Assembly: GCF_002804205.1 (NCBI RefSeq)
Contig: NZ_CP024962.1
Coordinates: 682,001-746,000, forward strand
Source of the DNA: Entomoplasma freundtii
GTDB taxonomy: Bacteria; Bacillota_I; Bacilli_A; Mycoplasmatales; Mycoplasmataceae
Length of the DNA: 64,000 nt
Direction: 5' to 3'
The position numbers and the translations under genes were made by a program. The notes beneath the pieces are model-generated. The model searched no databases and was not told where the DNA came from. It saw nothing but the letters and a program-made list of their open reading frames with translations. Every line of letters starts with the position of its first letter. The first letter of the stretch is position 1. Positions 23,938 through 34,465 of the stretch are shown one piece after another.

Positions 23938-24021
23938 TGGTGCGGGATAAGGGAGTCGAACCCTTACGTCAAAGACGCTAGATCCTAAGTCTAGTGCGTC
24001 TGCCAATTCCGCCAATCCCGC
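23938..24021 (-). tRNA. tRNA-Leu (anticodon TAG)
   Basis: Acceptor GCGGGAT pairs with ATCCCGC, the anticodon loop is CTTAGGA (TAG), there is a long variable arm (class II tRNA), and CCA is encoded. It is transcribed after tRNA-Lys. Confidence 0.96.
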
Positions 24022-24025
24022 AGAA

Positions 24026-24101
<76 letters not shown>

Positions 24102-24300
24102 GACTAATACACCAAGTAATTTTAACATTTAATTAATAAGCTTTCAATAAGAAAAATAGCAAGATTAATTATAAATTAATAAAACAATCTTTGGGTTTCC
24201 TAAAAGTGAAAAAATCGGAAAAAGGCTTAACCAAAACTATTTTTTAAAGACGTATTTTATTTTTTAAATGATACTATGGACTCGAGTAGGTTTTAATAAA

Positions 24301-24993
24301 ATGGCACTATCTAGCAAAATTTGTACCTATATTTTAAATTTAATTGATGTTCACAAGGATGAAGATGGTTTTCAATTACCGAGTGAAAACTTTTTAGCAA
24401 CCAAATTCAAAGTTTCGCGAGTTACGGTACGTAAGGACTTAGCTTTATTACAAAGTCAAGGTTATATTTATTCGGTTAAGGGAAGCGGTTATTTTACGAG
24501 TCCTTCCTTTGCCTTTTCAAAACTTTATTCAATTGGTTCAGAATCCTATGAAAAAAGAAAAGTTATCACTCTAAATAACCAAAACATTTTTTATGATATC
24601 CTTGAAAAATTAAATATTAGTTCAACAAATATTAATATTAATGATTATTTTGGATATACAAAAGTTTTTTATGACAAGAAAGACAAACCACGCCTTTACA
24701 ACAATTCTTTTATTCTCAAACCATTATTTGACGAAATTGACTTAACTAAAATTACCCATTCGCTTTTAAGTTTTATTGCGGAAAATAATATTCCTTTAGA
24801 TAAACAAATTAACAAAGCCTTTGTGGAAGAAAAGAATAGTCAAGATGTTCATTTATTAAGTTTATTACACGAGAAGGAATTAATTCCGACAGTCTACGGT
24901 TCAATTATTTCTAAAGATGGTAAATTTGTGGAACTTTACCAAAGAAGGTATGATCCAGATGATTTTGTTCAAAATTGAGTGAAATTTTTCTAG
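24301..24993 (+). CDS. GntR-family regulator with UTRA domain, TreR-like
   Basis: A 230-residue transcription factor. The N-terminal winged helix has FQLPSENFLATKFKVSRVTV followed by LQSQGYIYSVKGSGYF, the classic GntR pattern. The C-terminal two thirds resemble the UTRA ligand domain (ending VELYQRRYDPDDFV). The ATG at 24301 is preferred: the upstream ATG at 24268 has no ribosome site. Two TTGTATATACAA palindromes lie just downstream, before the GH65 phosphorylase gene. That is the operator recalled for Bacillus TreR, so a trehalose-6-phosphate-like signal is inferred. One TGA (Trp) occurs near the C-terminus. Confidence 0.88.
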
Positions 24994-25005
24994 TTGTATA
25001 TACAA
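24994..25005 (+). promoter_or_regulatory. Operator palindrome, copy A
   Basis: A perfect 12-bp palindrome TTGTATATACAA directly after the regulator's stop codon, identical to copy B 53 bp downstream. Confidence 0.65.
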
Positions 25006-25017
25006 GTTTTTATGCTA

Positions 25018-25045
25018 AGAAGTCCTGTAAACACGGGACTTTTTT
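25018..25045 (+). terminator. Terminator of the GntR-type regulator gene
   Basis: AAGTCCTG and CGGGACTT pair with one G-U, followed by T. It lies between the two operator copies. Confidence 0.8.
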
Positions 25046-25046
25046 C

Positions 25047-25058
25047 TTGTATATACAA
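25047..25058 (+). promoter_or_regulatory. Operator palindrome, copy B
   Basis: TTGTATATACAA within a perfect 14-bp palindrome CTTGTATATACAAG, 64 bp upstream of the GH65-PgmB start. Its placement suits repression of that gene. Confidence 0.75.
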
Positions 25059-25122
25059 GTTTTAGACAAAAAGTTCTTATATTTTTATTGATAAAATTCT
25101 ACATTCAAGTCAGGAGGATTTT

Positions 25123-28100
25123 ATGGAAAATAGATTTCTAAATTATCAAAAGGAAATTGATGGTGAGAAAAATTGGGCTCTAGAAGAAACTGAATTTCAA
25201 GAGCAAAACCTTGGGAAGTTTGAAACCATTTTTTCACTTGGCAATGGCTATCTAGGTTTGAGAGCCACCACTGAGGAAAATTATGCTAATCGCCACTATG
25301 GTTTATTTGTCGGCGGCACTTTTAGCACCCCTCCCGGCGATGAGGTCCCAGAATTACCGAATGGGGCAGATATTCTTAATATGGAGTTTATAATTAATGG
25401 ACAAAAAATGACTTTAAATAACGGTGTCGTTGACAATTATTCTAAATTTCTAAATATTAAGAATGGTCTTTTAACAAGAAGTTTTGTTTGAAGTTGCACA
25501 GAAAAACCAATTAAATTAAGTTTTACTTTTGAAACATTCACTTCATTTAAAAATATCCATTCAATTAACCAGCAAGTAAAAATAAAAAATTTAAGTAATG
25601 ACTTAAATCTAAATTTTGTCGGTGGTATTGATACACAAACTACCAACTCTGGAACTCAACATTTTACTGATTATGATACCCGATTCTGGAACCAATCAGT
25701 TCAACAATATGTTTTACAAACTAATAACAAAATTACTTTTTTCTATAATCGATTATTTAACTTTTATTTAAATAATCAAAAATTAACTAATACTAATAAT
25801 GCTCTTTTATCTGTTTATGGCTATGATCGCCGGAAAGTTTACCAAGATTTTGAGTTTGAATTAAAAAATAACGAAGAATTAACCATTGAAGCATTTTCGA
25901 CAGTTTATACAACTCGTGATTTTGATTTCCAGAAAAAAGATTACGAAACACTCTTAACCGATTATGCTATAAACCTTAAGAATTATGCTTCAAAACGTTT
26001 CAGCAATAATTTTCAGGAACATGAGCCAATTTTTCAAGAAAAAATGGCTCAATCAGGGTTGGAAATAGAATCGCAAAATGATTTGGATGTTTTATTAGTT
26101 CGTTTGGCAAACTATCAACTTCACAAATTAACTCCTTGGTATGACAAACGTCTGAACATTGATGCTAAAGGATGAGTTGGTGAAGAATATAAAGGTCACA
26201 CCTTTTGGGATACAGAAATTTACATTTTGCCATTTTACATTTATAACAATCCTCAAAAAGCTAGAGAGCTTTTAGAACATCGTTACTTTGTAAAACCATC
26301 AGCCCATATTAAAGCTAAAGCTAACAATGTTAAAGGAGCCATGTGACCTTGAGAAACCTCTTGAAAAAACGATGGCGAAACGTGTCCGACATGAGGCGAG
26401 GTCGATTTTAAAACTGGAAAAAGAATGAAAGTATGAGCCGCTTTTAACGAGTTGCATATTTCTGCTGATATTATGTGAGCCATTGACTTGTATTTTAAAC
26501 AAACCAACGATGTTCAATTCATGGAAAAATACGGCTATGAGATGCTTTTTGATACCGCTTTATTTTGATCAACAAAAGCAGTTATTGGTAAAACCGGAAA
26601 ATACGAAATTCTCCAAGTAACTGGCCCTAATGAATATAAGGAAAATATTGATAATAATATTTTTACAAATTATATGGTTGCCAAAACCTTAAACCAAACT
26701 TTGGGTTATTACAATTTTTTAAAGAACAATAAACCACAGCTTTTAAACAAAATTCAGAAGAAAATTAATTTAACAAAACAAGACTGAAAATTAGTAGAAA
26801 AAGTTGCTCATAACCTTTATTTGCCAAATAAAAACGACAATGGCATTTATCCAGAAAATGATACCTTTTTAACTTTGAAAGAAATTGAAAATATGCCTTT
26901 TTATAAAAAAAATAAAGGCGAACTATGAAAAAAATATACAGCAAATGAAATTAATGATTACCAAATCCTAAAACAAGCCGATATCGTCGCTTTGTTTTAT
27001 ACGATGCTCGAAGAGTTCAAACCTAAAGACATTATTAATAATTGAAAATATTATGAAGCGCGAACGCTACATAGTTCATCGTTATCGCTAAGTATGCATG
27101 CGGTTACCGCTTGTCTTATTGGAGAACTTGATCTGAGTTACGATTTCTTTCAAAAAGCTTTATTAGTTGATTATGGCCCTAACATGACTTCCTCAACTAA
27201 TGGTATTCATAGTGCTGCTATTGGAGGAATTATTAAATGCGTCGTTGAAGGTTTTGGCGGTATTAAAAATACAAATGGCTTGATAATAAATCCCCACTTG
27301 CCAAAAGTCATTTCTAAAATTGGTTATAACTTTTATTATTTAAAAAATAAATTTCATTTAGTAGTAACCCCGCACGAAATAACCCTTAGAAGACTAAATA
27401 ACATTAGCGATGTTGCAATTAGAGTCGCAAATCAAAATTACCTAATCAAAAAAAATGATAATGAACTTGTCGTAAAACTACCGCGAATCAAGGGTTTTGT
27501 TTTCGATTTAGATGGTGTAATCACCAAAACAGCCGACCTACATTTTGTAGCTTGACAAAAAATGGCGCAACAACTAGGAATAAATATTCCTGATGAAATG
27601 GAAATTCAACTTCGTGGAGTAGAAAGAACTAAATGTCTTGATTTAATTTTAGATAAATATGCCCCAGAAATTACTTTGACACAAGAGCAAAAAGAGAAAT
27701 GATTAAGCTATAAAAACGCTATTTATGTAAATTCTCTTTCAACTCTAACAAAGGCCAATATTTTACCTAATATGCTTGAAAATTTAGAATATCTAAAATC
27801 CAATAACTACAAGATTGCCTTAGCATCCGTATCTGAAAACGCGCCAAGAATTATTGATAAATTAGGAATTACACATTTTTTTGATTATATTGTTGAAATC
27901 AAAAAAATTACAAAGCCAAAACCAGACCCCGAATTATTTGAAACAGCAGCGCAACAATTGGGGCTCAATAAAAACGAAGTAATTATTGTGGATGATTCAA
28001 TAACTGGTATTCAAGCAATTAAAAATGGCAATATGCTAAGTATTGGAATTGGTTTAGAAGGAGACTTTAGTTTTCCCACAACCCAAGAGTTTAAGCCTCA

Positions 28101-28146
28101 AGAAATTGAAAATATAGTAAGGAATATATATCATGAAGAAGTTTAA
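25123..28146 (+). CDS. GH65 disaccharide phosphorylase fused to beta-phosphoglucomutase
   Basis: A 1007-residue bifunctional protein in one uninterrupted frame (code 4). Residues 1 to ~775 are a glycoside hydrolase family 65 phosphorylase: FSLGNGYLGLRA near the start, the general-acid Glu504 in GPNEYKENIDNN, and the phosphate-binding SSLSLSMHAV block. Residues ~789-1007 are a HAD phosphatase-fold beta-phosphoglucomutase: FDLDGVITKTADLHF (nucleophile Asp795, Asp797), a KPKPDPELF loop and VDDSITGIQAI. GH65 releases beta-glucose-1-phosphate by phosphorolysis and the second half turns it into glucose-6-phosphate. The substrate may be trehalose, trehalose-6-phosphate, maltose or kojibiose; the TreR-type operators favour a trehalose compound. 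A strong AGGAGG precedes the ATG. Confidence 0.93.
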
Positions 28147-29932
28147 AAAACTTGATTTGAAGGAGCGTTTCAGAGTTTCGCGCAATGATACTCAAATTGG
28201 CTTAAAGCAACTTGTTTGATTAGGTTTTAATTACACTTGTTCCATGGGTTTTACCCTAACATTGTCACGAACATTTGGCGGTAAAACTGGTGTTGGAATG
28301 CATTTGTTTTGAATCATCATTTTAGGAGCTATCGTGGCAGGAGGGGCAGCTTGAGCCTTCGCCAAATGTGCTGAAGTTTATTCAGACAAAAATGGAGGAG
28401 CCTTTGAGTATACGCGTCGGACATTTGGCCGTTTCAATGGTTGGATGGTTGGTTTTTACCAATATGTCCTTATTCCAGTAACCACCCCAGCCTCAATCCT
28501 TGTCATCCTCGCGGTTGCTTTCCAAGGGATGTATGACCCAACAATGTGGGGATCAGAAGAGCAAACTCGTTTGTATTTAAATCTCATTTCCATTGGTATT
28601 TATGTTTGCCTCTCACTTCTCGTTTTATTAGGGACTAAAGTGTTTAAAATAGCAACCAATTTAACTAGTGGAGTTAAATGAGTTTTGCTAATCATGGTTT
28701 ATGTGGCGGCCATTATTATCATGGTGGATACTAAAGGCGGTAATTTCAAAGACGCTGCCAATACTGGCGAACTAACATCTCACAATTTTAATACTGCTTT
28801 TTCTGCCTTTTTCTATGCCTACACCGGCTTCGAAACTTTTGCTGCTGTTGGTGAAAATGTTAAAAATCCTAAAAAAACTATGCCAAAAGCAATTATGCTT
28901 GTCCTTATGGTTGCCGTTATTTTTTATATGGTCGGTTTAGTTTTTGTTATGGGTTCTTTAGGGGGCACTATTAATGAAAACCCAAATAACCAAATTATTC
29001 AATTAGGTCTTGGAGCTGGATCACTTGTCATTGTCGGCATCTCAAATATTGCTGCTAATATAAATGGTTTCATGCAAGGAGCTTTTTATAGTGGCGGAAT
29101 GTTACAACCACTAGTTGATCAAAAAATGATTACGACCAAAGTGGCTGTACTTAATAAACAAGGTTTAGCCGTCAAAGCCCTATTTTTAAACATGATTTTG
29201 ACAGTTTTATTTTCTCTATTTTGGTTAGTTTTACCATACATATTGAATAATAATGCGATTGATTATACATCATTAGTTGGGTTTAACTCTATTGTGATGT
29301 TTATCGTATATGGTTATGTCATCTCGGCCGCCTTGGTATTGTCATATAAGAAAAAAACAAGTTCTTCATGATTTGTTTATGCCATTTGAATAAGTGTTTT
29401 AGCTTTTTTGGGCTATCAATGTGTAATGTATTTTGTTGACTTCCAAACTAATAAATGACAAATTTTAACTTTTGGAGTCGTGACAACTTTAGCAATTAGT
29501 TGATACTTCCTCGGAGCGACATTACAACAAAAACAAAAGTTTTATAATTATCGCATTAAAAAATTAGAGCAACTATTAGCAAATACCACAAGTGAAACCC
29601 AAAAAGAAAAGTTAAGTGCGAAACTAATCTATATTAATGATCAACAAAGCTGAGTCATTGCTGAAATTGCCAAAGGAAAGCAAAGTTACCAAGATTTAAT
29701 AGATTGAAAAGACACTGAAGATTATAAAGAAATAATGATAAACAAAGGGCTAGTAAAGGACATGAAGGAACGAGCTTTATTAGATGGCTCAAAGCAAATT
29801 TATGTACCTAAGTTTATTTTAAAAAATAAAGTTAATAGAATTAAAAAGGAAAATCAAGAAACAACTAAAAACCAAAATCTCGATTATTTAACAAAAATCG
29901 AACTTCAAAATCTAATTCAAAATAAGCAATAA
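28133..29932 (+). CDS. APC-superfamily amino-acid permease
   Basis: A 599-residue transporter with about twelve membrane segments over residues ~25-465. The start (LKQLVWLGFNYTCSMGFTLT) and the YAYTGFETFAAVGENVKNPK segment are typical of APC amino-acid/polyamine permeases; the latter is the conserved helix 6 with its GFE motif. A hydrophilic, helical C-terminal tail of roughly 130 residues with many Lys and Glu extends into the cytoplasm, which is longer than usual. The start overlaps the GH65-PgmB stop by 14 bases with AAGGA at the right spacing, so it is translationally coupled to sugar metabolism. The amino-acid substrate is unknown. Confidence 0.88.
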
Positions 29933-29962
29933 TTTTTATTTGCTCATGTCCTCTTGCTCTAA

Positions 29963-29992
29963 TTGCTCAATAAGAAAACCAACGTTTATAAT
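29963..29992 (+). promoter_or_regulatory. Candidate promoter of the ferritin-like gene
   Basis: TTGCTC (29963-29968) and a perfect TATAAT (29987-29992) are separated by 18 bp, 45 bp upstream of the start codon. Confidence 0.6.
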
Positions 29993-30037
29993 AATGTGGT
30001 AAAACATAATTAAGAATAGTTAGAGAGGTCTATAAAA

Positions 30038-30574
30038 ATGATTAAAAAAGAATTAGTGAATGATATTACTTCATTTTTAAACTTACATATCTTAACTCAA
30101 ATGAACTGTATGCAATTGTCAAAGGAATTAGCCCAAAATGGTTATCCTGGTTTCGCTTGATTTTATCAAGTTCAAGCCGAAGATGAATTTATGCACCAAC
30201 GTCGTATTATTAATTTTTTACAAGGAACTGAAGGAGCTGGTGATTATATTTTAGAAGCACCACAATTCAAACCTTTTAAAATAGACAATCCAGCAGAAGC
30301 TATCCAATACTACATTAAAATGCGTCAAGATACTTTGGCTAAAGTAACTAAATTAAAAGACAATGCTTATAAAGCTGGAGATTACTTAGTTTCAGACTTT
30401 TATAACTGATTTATTAAAGATTACTGAACTGAAATCAGCGAAAACCAAGACGTTTTAGACCGTGTCAAAATGAATCCTGAGTCATTGGCCGGACTTGACC
30501 GTCGCATGGGAAAACGTGGGGAAATTGAACCTGATCACGTTATTCACCCAATGAAAATCTTCATTGCTGACTAA
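30038..30574 (+). CDS. Ferritin-like protein with altered diiron site
   Basis: A 178-residue four-helix protein aligned by eye to bacterial ferritin FtnA. AEDEFMHQRRIINFL matches the second-helix AQEEMTHM block and keeps Glu50 and His53. Other ferroxidase ligands are changed: the position of E. coli Glu17 is Gln21, Glu94 is Arg and Gln127 is Tyr, while Glu130 is kept. It may therefore form a shell without normal ferroxidase chemistry. GAGAGG precedes the ATG. A decayed copy of its 3' third lies at 33150-33301, on the far side of the ATPase-PIN module. A terminator shared with the PIN gene follows. Confidence 0.85.
30424..30566 (+). repeat. Ferritin 3' end, repeat copy 1 (intact)
   Basis: This part of the ferritin-like gene is repeated in the same orientation at 33150-33301. 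The two flank the ATPase-PIN operon. Over the last ~131 bases the copies differ by about four substitutions and one deletion, counted by eye. Confidence 0.85.
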
Positions 30575-30580
30575 ATTAAT

Positions 30581-30614
30581 AAAAAAAGAAGGTCTTTAAA
30601 GACCTTCTTTTTTT
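30581..30614. terminator. Perfect bidirectional terminator between ferritin and PIN genes
   Basis: A perfect 17-bp inverted repeat (30581-30597 with 30598-30614) carries A runs on one side and T runs on the other, so it can end transcripts from both strands. It encodes the last residues and stop of the PIN protein. Confidence 0.9.
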
Positions 30615-31270
30615 AACATGTAATTATTCCTTCCAAATAACTCAGGTAATTGTTTTAACTCATTGTGAAATTCATTTAGTAAAGGCAGTAACATAAAGGA
30701 CAATTTCTCATCAGTAGTATGGATTTGTTTAATATTACCTTGAGCACAAGCTGAAATAATATGTCAATCATTAATTTTACAATTAGCCGGTTTTTGATCT
30801 TTTGGAAATTTTGAAAGGTGTTTATCTTTAAATTTTATAATATCTTCTTTTCGTTTATTTATATACTCAGTCACATATTCATCAAATTTTTTATCTTCCA
30901 AATTTGTCTTCACTATTCTTTTGATTGGATCAATCTCAAATTGGACATCTATTGCATCCGTACTTTCTGTACAAGCGTTATATCACTTCATAAAGGCTAG
31001 CCCTCTATCAATCCCTTCATCATTATTTTTTGATTTTTTATTTGGGCTTTTACCATTGCAAAGGTTAGAAAATTCGGTTTTGAGTTTAGTTCCTATTAAA
31101 AAGTGTTCATAGTCACGACCAGTTTTCAATAATTTTTCAAAATTTTGGTAGCTTTCTGGAATAGTGAACCAATTAGGAGCACCAATTTTTATAGAGACTG
31201 GATTATTAGCTCCGCGTTGGCGATAGTCAATGAAAAGACACACATCAATAATCATTTTATATTTTGCCAT
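30596..31270 (-). CDS. PIN-like nuclease, partner of the adjacent ATPase
   Basis: A 224-residue protein not matched to a named family. Its layout fits a PIN-domain ribonuclease: Asp9 in KMIIDVCLFIDY, Glu66 in GTKLKTEFSNL, Asp168 in KINDWHIISACAQGN and Asp187 in KQIHTTDEKL, the four-acid metal site of the fold. The late block follows the PIN pattern of Asp, a small-residue helix, a strand, then T-x-D. The middle (residues 70-160) is Lys-rich and helical. It starts 3 bp after the ATPase stop, so both are one operon. The pair suggests a controlled nuclease effector. Function as defence or toxin is inference. Two or more Trp are TGA. Confidence 0.72.
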
Positions 31271-31273
31271 GTA

Positions 31274-32959
31274 TTAAATACCTAGCATTTCAAACGCATC
31301 ATTTATATAAAAGTCAACATAATTTTTGTAATTGCCATCCAATCTTCCTTTTTCATTAATTGAAAAATAATCAATATTTGTGCTTTTTGTTTTATTGAAA
31401 AGAAATAGAATATTTATTTCATTGTTTATCGATGATTCATTAAAGTCATTGGTATCTTTATTTTTATATATTTTATTTATAGATTTTCGCATAGAATCTA
31501 TAATAAACGTAGAATGTGTTTCGATGACTAAATATGTGTTTTCTAAATTTTGTTTAGTTTTTCTAAATTTTGCTAAATTAATACCACTAGCTTCCTTTTT
31601 ACCAATTTCTTTTTCTAATTTTTTCATGTCTTGAATATAATCTATAAAAAATGAACCTAGTCTATTTTGTGCTTTTGGATGTAGATGTAATTCTGGCTGC
31701 TCAATTGCTATGGATTTAATTACATCAATATTATTAGGATTAAGCTTTTGCTTATTAGTCAAAATGTTAACTAAAATAGGAAACAATTGTGAAACCCCTG
31801 TTCCGGAATATTTCAATTTTTTTTCTTTAGTTGAATTCAACTTAGTTTTATAAATTGGATAATAATAGACATGAGGATTATTATTTCTTATATCTTCCAC
31901 AATGTCTATACTTTGGATATTAGAAATAGATTGAAAAAATTTATCCATTTCACCCTTAAGAATATTTTTATTATCAAAAAAAGTTTTGATTGCTTCAAAA
32001 TGGGTGAAATTAACAGACTCTTGTTTGCTCCTATTAAAATTTTCTTGGACATAAAATTCTTCAAATGTTGGTCTAATTGGACCAATGTATTGAAAATAAT
32101 TATAAGCTTTTCTAAGACGGCTTCCTTTTGTGGCGGCTTCGAAGGCTCTAATATTGGCTTCGCTGATTTTATGTAATGAGCGATTATTTTTTGGTATTTC
32201 TTTTTTGTTTGGCAATTCAACTTTTTCATCTTCTTTACCTTTGCAAAAAATAAATAAAGCATACAATTCCTCTAGAGAAAGAGAAGTGTTTATTCTATCA
32301 AGAATATTGAATATTTGAGATTTATAAAAATCAGTATGAATTTCATGAAATTCATTGTGGTTTTTTGCATTTAAATAATTGGATAGTACAATTTTTTCTG
32401 ACTTTCATTTATTTTTATATTCCTTAACTTTATTATTTATTAGTCCGATAAAGTCATAGGATTCTTTTTTTAGAAATAAGTTTTTGTCTATCGGCAAATC
32501 AAAAAGTTCAATATCAATGCTTTTTAATTTTGGCGATGGGTTAATTGTTTGGTGAAGACTAGAAAAATCATATTCGAATTCGAATATGATTAACTCGTTG
32601 GTTGAACTATCTCAAGTATAAAATTTCTTTATTAGCGGAAAATCATAGTCTTTAATTATAAGTACGTCATACTTCTCCATCAAATAAACATCTTTTAGTC
32701 TCCTAGAGACCATTTCCTTAGAGGTGTAAGAAAGCAAGATTTCCAAAGGTTGTTTTGAATTTCTTATTATATCTTTACTTTTCACTTCATTAAAAGAAGT
32801 GCCCTGAAAGTTTAAAGTTTTGTTGTTGTTTACTGATTCCATTAATTTTAAAAGTGATGTTTTTCCAGTATTATTTTCTCCAGTCAATATTGTTAACGGG
32901 GAAATGCAGAAATTAGCATTTTCAAAATTTCGATAATTTTTGATATTTAAATGTTGCAT
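31274..32959 (-). CDS. AAA/SMC-like ATPase (OLD/DUF3696 type)
   Basis: A 561-residue ATPase. Walker A is LTGENNTGKTSLL (Gly27 to Thr34). An ABC-signature-like YSGTGVSQLFPIL lies near 384-396, Walker B IEQPELHLHPKAQ near 419-431, and a switch motif VIETHSTFII near 478-487. These, with FQYIGPIRPTFEEFY, are typical of OLD-like ATPases of the AAA_15/AAA_21/DUF3696 kind used in several phage-defence systems. No Toprim or nuclease domain is fused. The nuclease function seems supplied by the PIN gene 3 bp downstream. The ATG has AAGGA 5 nt upstream. The gene is visibly AT-richer than its neighbours. Confidence 0.88.
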
Positions 32960-33149
32960 ATATTCCTTTATATAAATTGATAATCTTTATAATGTTACGA
33001 TGCTACAAAATATATTTTACAAACTTAAATATAAAAAAAACAAGACATTATTAGGATGTATCTATATTTATTTAACGAATAAAATGTTTTCAAAAAGTTT
33101 TTAACTTTGGTTATTATTAAAAAATTAAGTTACACTTATGACTTTTTTC
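32960..33149. other. AT-rich upstream region of the ATPase-PIN operon
   Basis: No gene is seen. On the minus strand a TTGTTT/TAAAAT pair (18-bp spacer) and an AAGGA ribosome site could start the operon. The stretch ends where the decayed ferritin copy begins. Confidence 0.4.
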
Positions 33150-33301
33150 CTGAACTGATTTTTAAATAAATTAGCGAAAACCAAGACGTTTCAAACCGTG
33201 TCAAAATGAATCCTGATTCATTGGCCGGACTTGACCGTCGCATGGGAAAACGTGGGAAATTGAACCCGATCACGTTATTCACCCAATGAAAATCTTCATT
33301 G
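33150..33301 (+). pseudogene. Decayed copy of the ferritin 3' end
   Basis: This stretch matches bases 30424-30566 of the ferritin-like gene closely but has no start. A 10-base insertion after the first nine bases brings stop codons, and one G is lost in the run at 33254, shifting the frame. It cannot encode a protein. It marks the outer edge of the segment that holds the ATPase-PIN operon. Confidence 0.88.
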
Positions 33302-33311
33302 GGTGAATAAC
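33274..33311. repeat. Perfect 17-bp inverted repeat at the end of the ferritin relic
   Basis: Bases 33274-33290 and 33295-33311 are exact reverse complements around the 4-nt loop AATC. The left arm is ferritin sequence; the right arm leaves the ferritin sequence after TTCATTG and instead mirrors the left arm. In the intact gene only the inner 7 bp can pair. Confidence 0.93.
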
Positions 33312-33342
33312 TTAATATTTAATGACTAGCAAAAATAGTCAA

Positions 33343-33373
33343 AAAAACATTCGTTATTTTAACGAATGTTTTT
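33343..33373 (-). terminator. Terminator of the exported-protein gene
   Basis: ACATTCGTTA pairs with TAACGAATGT, flanked by A runs on one side and T runs on the other, so it could act in both directions. It lies 12 bp beyond the stop of the minus-strand gene. Confidence 0.75.
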
Positions 33374-33384
33374 ATTTTTATTGA

Positions 33385-33921
33385 TTATTTAGTATCGCCA
33401 AAAAAGAATATTTGTTTTAAAGGAAAATACAACGTCCCCGTCACATCTGATAAAGAATGTATAGTTCTTGCAGAATAAAAAATTGTTAGTTCATAATCAC
33501 CAGTCGACTCTACCTTACCACAATGAAACCAAAGAGTTGTTGTTTGTGTGGCTAACCCAGAGATGTTTTCTTCATTTAGCAATACATGAAATTTATCTAT
33601 TGTTAAAGGGAAACCCCTTCATTCATGTTCATAGATTGTTCCACCACAATTGACAATCGAACTTAACCCATCACCATTAAATTCTAGTCTGCTAGGGGGA
33701 TGAGCAACTTTATCATTTCATTTAAAAGTGACATTAATTTGAACGTCGGAATTATTAACTATATATTCTGCTTTGTCTAAAAAGACGTATTGGACGGTTT
33801 GGGGTTTAACTTGTTGTTTTGTTATAGTATCGCTACTATTGCCATCTAAACTCGAGACTGCTGGTGTTAGTCCAGCTCCAAGTAATGATAGGCCTAATAA
33901 GGATGTTAATAAGATTTTCAT
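33385..33921 (-). CDS. Exported protein of unknown function
   Basis: A 178-residue protein. The first ~24 residues (MKILLTSLLGLSLLGAGLTP followed by AVSS) form a signal peptide with no lipobox Cys, so it should be secreted or remain on the outer face. The mature part is rich in beta-strand-like stretches (QYVFLDKAEYIVNNSDVQI; YELTIFYSARTI) and has two Cys (CGG; FHCGK) that could pair. No family is recognised. GGAGG precedes the ATG. It is a single-gene unit next to the ferritin relic. Two Trp are TGA. Confidence 0.7.
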
Positions 33922-34097
33922 AACTTCTTTTCCTCCGTTTATAAAATGAGTAGCAAATAGTATTACTCACCCACATTTTAGTCCGATATTGTCTAAAGAC
34001 TATACTTTTAATATTTGGTCTAGAAGGAAGATTATAAAAATAACTTAATTAATTTATAGCTAGGCAAAGTCTTATTGACTCATTGTTAATTTATAAA

Positions 34098-34127
34098 TAA
34101 AAAAACACTCCTTAAAAAGGAGTGTTT
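34098..34127 (-). terminator. Terminator of the four-tRNA operon
   Basis: On the minus strand ACACTCCTT and AAGGAGTGT form a stem followed by seven T. Confidence 0.9.
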
Positions 34128-34137
34128 GACTTAGCCA

Positions 34138-34213
<76 letters not shown>

Positions 34214-34225
34214 TTAAACAAAAAA

Positions 34226-34301
34226 TGGTGGGGTGCAACGGGCTCGAACCGCTGACCGCCTGCTTGTAAGGCAGGAGCTCTCCCAACTGAGCTAGCACCC
34301 C
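34226..34301 (-). tRNA. tRNA-Val (anticodon TAC)
   Basis: Acceptor GGGGTGC pairs with GCACCCC, the anticodon loop CTTACAA gives TAC, and CCA is encoded. Confidence 0.97.
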
Positions 34302-34306
34302 AAATT

Positions 34307-34382
34307 TGGTAGCCTGTACGGGGTTCGAACCCGTGTATCCACGGATGAAAACCGTGTGTGTTAACCGCTTCACCAACAGGCC
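34307..34382 (-). tRNA. tRNA-Glu (anticodon TTC)
   Basis: Acceptor GGCCTGT pairs with ACAGGCT (G1-U72 wobble), the anticodon loop TTTTCAT gives TTC, and CCA is encoded. Confidence 0.96.
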
Positions 34383-34389
34383 AATAAAA

Positions 34390-34465
34390 TGGCGGCTTTT
34401 ACAGGACTCGAACCTGTGACAAACCGGTTAACAGCCGGTTGCTCTACCAACTGAGCTAAAAAGCC
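34390..34465 (-). tRNA. tRNA-Asn (anticodon GTT)
   Basis: Acceptor GGCTTTT pairs with AAAAGCC, the anticodon loop CTGTTAA gives GTT, and CCA is encoded. It is the first gene of the cluster. Confidence 0.97.

Follow-up and report, generated by a model that had tools for sequence, protein, structure and literature searches.

How did the end of a broken ferritin copy in Entomoplasma freundtii come to hold a perfect inverted repeat? The repeat occupies 33274–33311 of the window (the whole 64,000-nucleotide stretch of DNA that was analysed), where two arms that are exact reverse complements (17/17) flank the 4-nt loop AATC, as the first-pass annotation had read it, down to the letters GGTGAATAAC at 33302–33311. 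Among the perfect inverted repeats of the window with loops of 3–8 nt it ranks second in length. Five such repeats have arms of at least 14 nt; the four others, which start at 377, 30580, 33343 and 57777, hold A and T tracts and look terminator-like by eye. When the window was dinucleotide-shuffled 30 times, no shuffle reached 17 nt; the maximum was 14 nt, seen in one of the 30. We propose that the repeat very probably arose when a duplicated ferritin 3′ end underwent one quasipalindrome-associated template switch.

The genome is a single contig of 838,114 bases in which TGA is read as Trp (open reading frames are continuous in code 4). A partial second copy of the ferritin 3′ end, here called the relic, lies 2.7 kb from the intact gene (Table 1). 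Its ~150 bp comprise the last ~140 bp of ferritin and 6–7 bp of flank, with substitutions and a 1-nt deletion that shifts the frame, and it presumably encodes ferritin no longer. Immediately left of the relic, 33136–33167 shows faint similarity to the intact gene over ~30 nt of poor alignment, which may mean that the duplication was once longer. Between the 150-bp direct duplicates, and directly at the ferritin 3′ end, sits a two-gene minus-strand cassette (30596–32959). The first of its products, a 224-aa protein, had no match in Pfam or PADLOC and no plasmid match, and among 298 genomes of the order only its own was found to encode it; its predicted single-sequence fold (mean pLDDT 37.8) was too poor to use. 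By eye, the ends of this protein recall PIN nucleases. The second is an ATPase; in PADLOC it hit profiles of defence-type ATPases, AriA and GajA among them. It also had a RecF-like match below the cutoff and no confirmed relative on viral contigs.

Table 1 Features of the locus, in window coordinates
Feature	Position	Strand	Remarks
tRNA-Leu/Lys	23938–24101		
Intact ferritin gene	30038–30574	+	Code 4, 178 aa; Pfam Ferritin PF00210, E 1.5e-11; full-length orthologs 61–65% identical
Imperfect hairpin at ferritin 3′ end	30539–30574	+	
224-aa protein, no recognised family	30596–31270	−	In cassette
AAA_15 ATPase (OLD/RecF-like)	31274–32959	−	In cassette; Pfam AAA_15, E 1.1e-20
Relic, second copy of ferritin 3′ end	33168–33317	+	Copy of 30432–30581; 93% identity over 151 columns
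Left arm	33274–33290	+	Unchanged, coding in the intact gene; probable switch template; exact reverse complement of right arm
Loop AATC	33291–33294	+	
Right arm	33295–33311	+	33295–33301 as in the intact gene; 33302–33311 (GGTGAATAAC) probably derived by the switch
Terminator-like hairpin, 14 pairs	33343–33373	+	Between relic and convergent gene 33385–33921
tRNA-Thr/Val/Glu/Asn cluster	34138–34465		

Comparison of the two copies shows what changed at the end of the gene. With spacing added, the intact tail reads TTCATTG CTGACTAAA TTAATA and the relic tail TTCATTG GGTGAATAAC TTAATA. In the best alignment the relic equals the intact tail plus one inserted G and three substitutions, four changes within ~10 nt that all match the left arm, compared with six differences between the copies over the preceding 135 aligned columns. 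The TTAATA that follows the right arm matches the intact 3′ flank at 6/6 positions, an AT-rich stretch of only 6 nt, after which the flanks differ. The left arm itself is identical at 30539–30555 of the intact gene. At this place the contiguous perfect arm is 7 nt in the intact copy and 17 nt in the relic, with DNA folding energies on the two strands of −5.4 and −7.3 kcal/mol for the intact copy and −17.4 and −18.0 kcal/mol for the relic. The first-pass annotation had stated that only CAATGAA–AATC–TTCATTG can pair in the intact gene; the 7-bp perfect arm is there, but ‘only’ is too strict, since the intact copy folds with 13 pairs (7+3+3 across a bulge and a mismatch) and is better described as a 13-pair than as a 7-bp quasi-palindrome. 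It had also taken the sequence after TTCATTG to have been replaced. That sequence does mirror the left arm, but it aligns to the intact tail through one insertion and three substitutions, with TTAATA retained.

We used ferritin orthologs to polarise the change. A ferritin match was present in 33 of 60 genomes of the family, this genome included. Apart from the gene under study, protein identity of 61–65% over all 178 residues was seen in just two orthologs: G005, and G004, which is Mesoplasma lactucae ATCC 49193. These two were taken from 39 listed places, three of which belong to the genome under study; a second ferritin of M. lactucae (35% identity) and other distant ferritins were left out, and for most distant ferritins of the family the alignment stops at about residue 172 of 178 and is thus uninformative on the tail. 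A first scan of genome contigs with the ferritin sequence confirmed no relative, and ferritin was absent from all three other genomes of the genus. Aligning the ferritin ends of relatives, a check named in the first-pass annotation, found the Ala-Asp-stop ending of the intact gene in both close full-length orthologs, and M. lactucae shares with the intact gene the identical nine bases GCTGACTAA. Because both orthologs end like the intact gene, GGTGAATAAC in the relic is the derived state and the relic is the changed copy, as judged from two orthologs of another genus at this level of identity. The left arm is conserved coding sequence; by eye on the alignment, G005 matches it at 16 of the 17 letters and G004 at 14. 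Of the six other differences before the tail, three show the intact copy in agreement with both orthologs, two (30436 and 30481) show the relic in agreement with them, and one is ambiguous. The pattern at 30436 and 30481 implies that the parent cannot be read exactly from the intact copy; both copies have changed since their separation, or they derive from two alleles.

These observations fit a simple course of events. The parental sequence would already have been an imperfect hairpin, with 7 contiguous pairs and 6 more across a bulge and a mismatch. During strand synthesis, pairing of TTCATTG with CAATGAA would have let the growing end fold back on its own left arm, where it would have copied ten bases (GGTGAATAAC) before returning to the normal template at TTAATA; one event would thus have changed CTGACTAAA to GGTGAATAAC and perfected the stem. 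The match of TTAATA past the arm is what a return to the normal template would leave, although it covers only 6 nt and is AT-rich. If the switch took place within the nascent strand, that strand was presumably plus-sense and copied itself, since it is the right arm that was rewritten, with the left as its source. We infer a single event: one reverse-complement copy of the left arm, with a 10-nt core and 7 loop-side flanking pairs, explains 4/4 changes, and the clustered changes, all templated by the other arm, improve complementarity from an arm of 7 to one of 17. When every combination of one insertion and three substitutions within the first 20 nt was enumerated, 1,603,855 distinct outcomes resulted, one of which has an arm of at least 17. 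In a simulation of 200,000 draws, with clusters kept at cores of at least 8 nt and shorter cores dropped, any single reverse-complement copy could account for 75 of 101,279 clusters, and 17 pairs were attained in 3. A chance palindrome was ruled out by the shuffles, the exhaustive enumeration and the cluster simulation. The local template switch put forward in the first-pass annotation is thus borne out by the ortholog polarisation, by the single copy that explains all changes and by the absence of the exact arm from other loci of this genome.

Mutation of this kind is long established and ordinary; the ferritin relic is a clean and unusually legible example of it. It is easy to read because the genome keeps an unaltered copy nearby and the direction of change follows from orthologs. 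Quasipalindrome-associated template-switch mutation has been described in E. coli thyA and lacZ reporters, phage T4 and yeast CYC1 (PMC7202029). As described there, an imperfect inverted repeat becomes perfect through clustered changes templated from the other arm, with the loop and template arm unchanged, as in the relic; unlike that system, ours is a historical event in a mollicute gene fragment, deduced from a duplicate copy and not observed in culture. Template-switch mutations have also been reported to create or perfect hairpins in RNA genes (PMC8794818). The likeness to those reported cases is that a single event yields a reverse-complement repeat that can fold into a perfect stem; the relic differs in being what remains of a protein gene, with a stem that shows no sign of function. 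A full-text literature search returned no paper containing both ‘quasipalindrome’ and ‘Mycoplasma’, and among the papers listed on template switching, inverted repeats and multinucleotide changes in bacterial genomes, judged by title or the start of the abstract, none was a survey of such events in bacterial genomes. A systematic count of such events in small-genome bacteria may therefore be open.

The timing of the switch is less firmly placed than its mechanism. It is possible, if tentative, that the relic tail is a resident ferritin allele that pre-dates the cassette, with the switch occurring while the gene was functional and ended ..IFIGWIT (code 4), and that homologous recombination later brought in the cassette together with a foreign ferritin 3′ end, which now completes the intact gene. 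The relic tail does stay an open ferritin frame in code 4, the relic is the copy that agrees with both orthologs at the two sites noted above, and the terminator-like hairpin and the downstream gene directly follow the relic. However, no cassette-free strain turned up, and two sites at third codon positions carry little weight. The resident allele would in any case alter the timing of the template switch and not its mechanism; the relic could be an old resident gene end or a later copy.

Whether the switch also records how the cassette arrived is a separate matter. It is unlikely that one replication event with several template switches, a break-repair event of the kind known as MMBIR, produced the palindrome and the ~150-bp duplication and also brought in the two-gene ATPase cassette. 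If it did, the hairpin would record the entry of a defence-like cassette into a small bacterial genome without an integrase. The first-pass annotation had taken the repeat to mark the breakpoint of the rearrangement. The palindrome does adjoin the right-hand duplication boundary, but it lies beside that boundary, because the two copies stay similar for 6 nt past the arm, as far as 33317. The palindrome marks the breakpoint only loosely, and a shared event with the cassette insertion would be conjecture.

Two further explanations dispense with a local template switch altogether. We consider it very unlikely that the palindrome was built stepwise by point mutations and that selection then kept it to act as an intrinsic terminator of either the ferritin transcript or the convergent gene. 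The RNA stem of 33274–33311 is stable (−25.5 kcal/mol), and with the tail TTAATATTTA it passes a loose scan as terminator-like, so that selection for the hairpin is possible on the score of the right arm and tail. However, the tail after 33311 is T-poor, and the intact copy already has the first six of its bases; a separate terminator-like hairpin follows 32 nt downstream; the relic is a frameshifted fragment; and the enumeration makes a 17-nt arm from four independent changes very unlikely. A known RNA family was rejected, as no Rfam family matched 30000–34100 at gathering score.

The exact arm occurs three times in the whole genome, all in the two ferritin copies, and a further nine matches all carry 3 mismatches, compared with seven matches for a reversed control pattern. 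A dispersed element end was rejected on this count, and the recurrence of the repeat at unrelated loci, which the first-pass annotation had named as the sign of such an end, was not seen in this genome. Some islands rebuild the end of the gene that they enter, and the cassette with its duplicated target-gene 3′ end resembles them; yet that the palindrome is an attachment site or the end of a mobile cassette, despite lying within 6 nt of the point where the copies diverge, is extremely improbable, given that its left arm is plain ferritin coding sequence, which the intact gene shares in full and the orthologs almost in full, that no exact arm copy lies elsewhere, that no integrase or transposase was recognised between the ferritin copies (open reading frames, Pfam, PADLOC) and that the other cassette boundary has only an imperfect version of the hairpin.

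The local template switch took place in a part of the genome with an uneven gene content. Ferritin and the cassette lie within a 10-kb interval (24102–34137) between tRNA-Leu/Lys and the four-tRNA cluster. The matching tRNA interval spans ~7.0, 2.9 and 4.1 kb in three genomes of the same genus, and ~10.0 kb here. Seven window genes tested from 24268–33921 had no protein-level match in those three intervals, and the protein encoded at 33385–33921 was absent from all three other genomes of the genus. The tRNA-bounded interval is a hot spot of gene turnover. It also holds, at 25123–28146, a 1007-aa protein that combines a glycosyl hydrolase family 65 phosphorylase and a C-terminal HAD hydrolase in one frame (Pfam).
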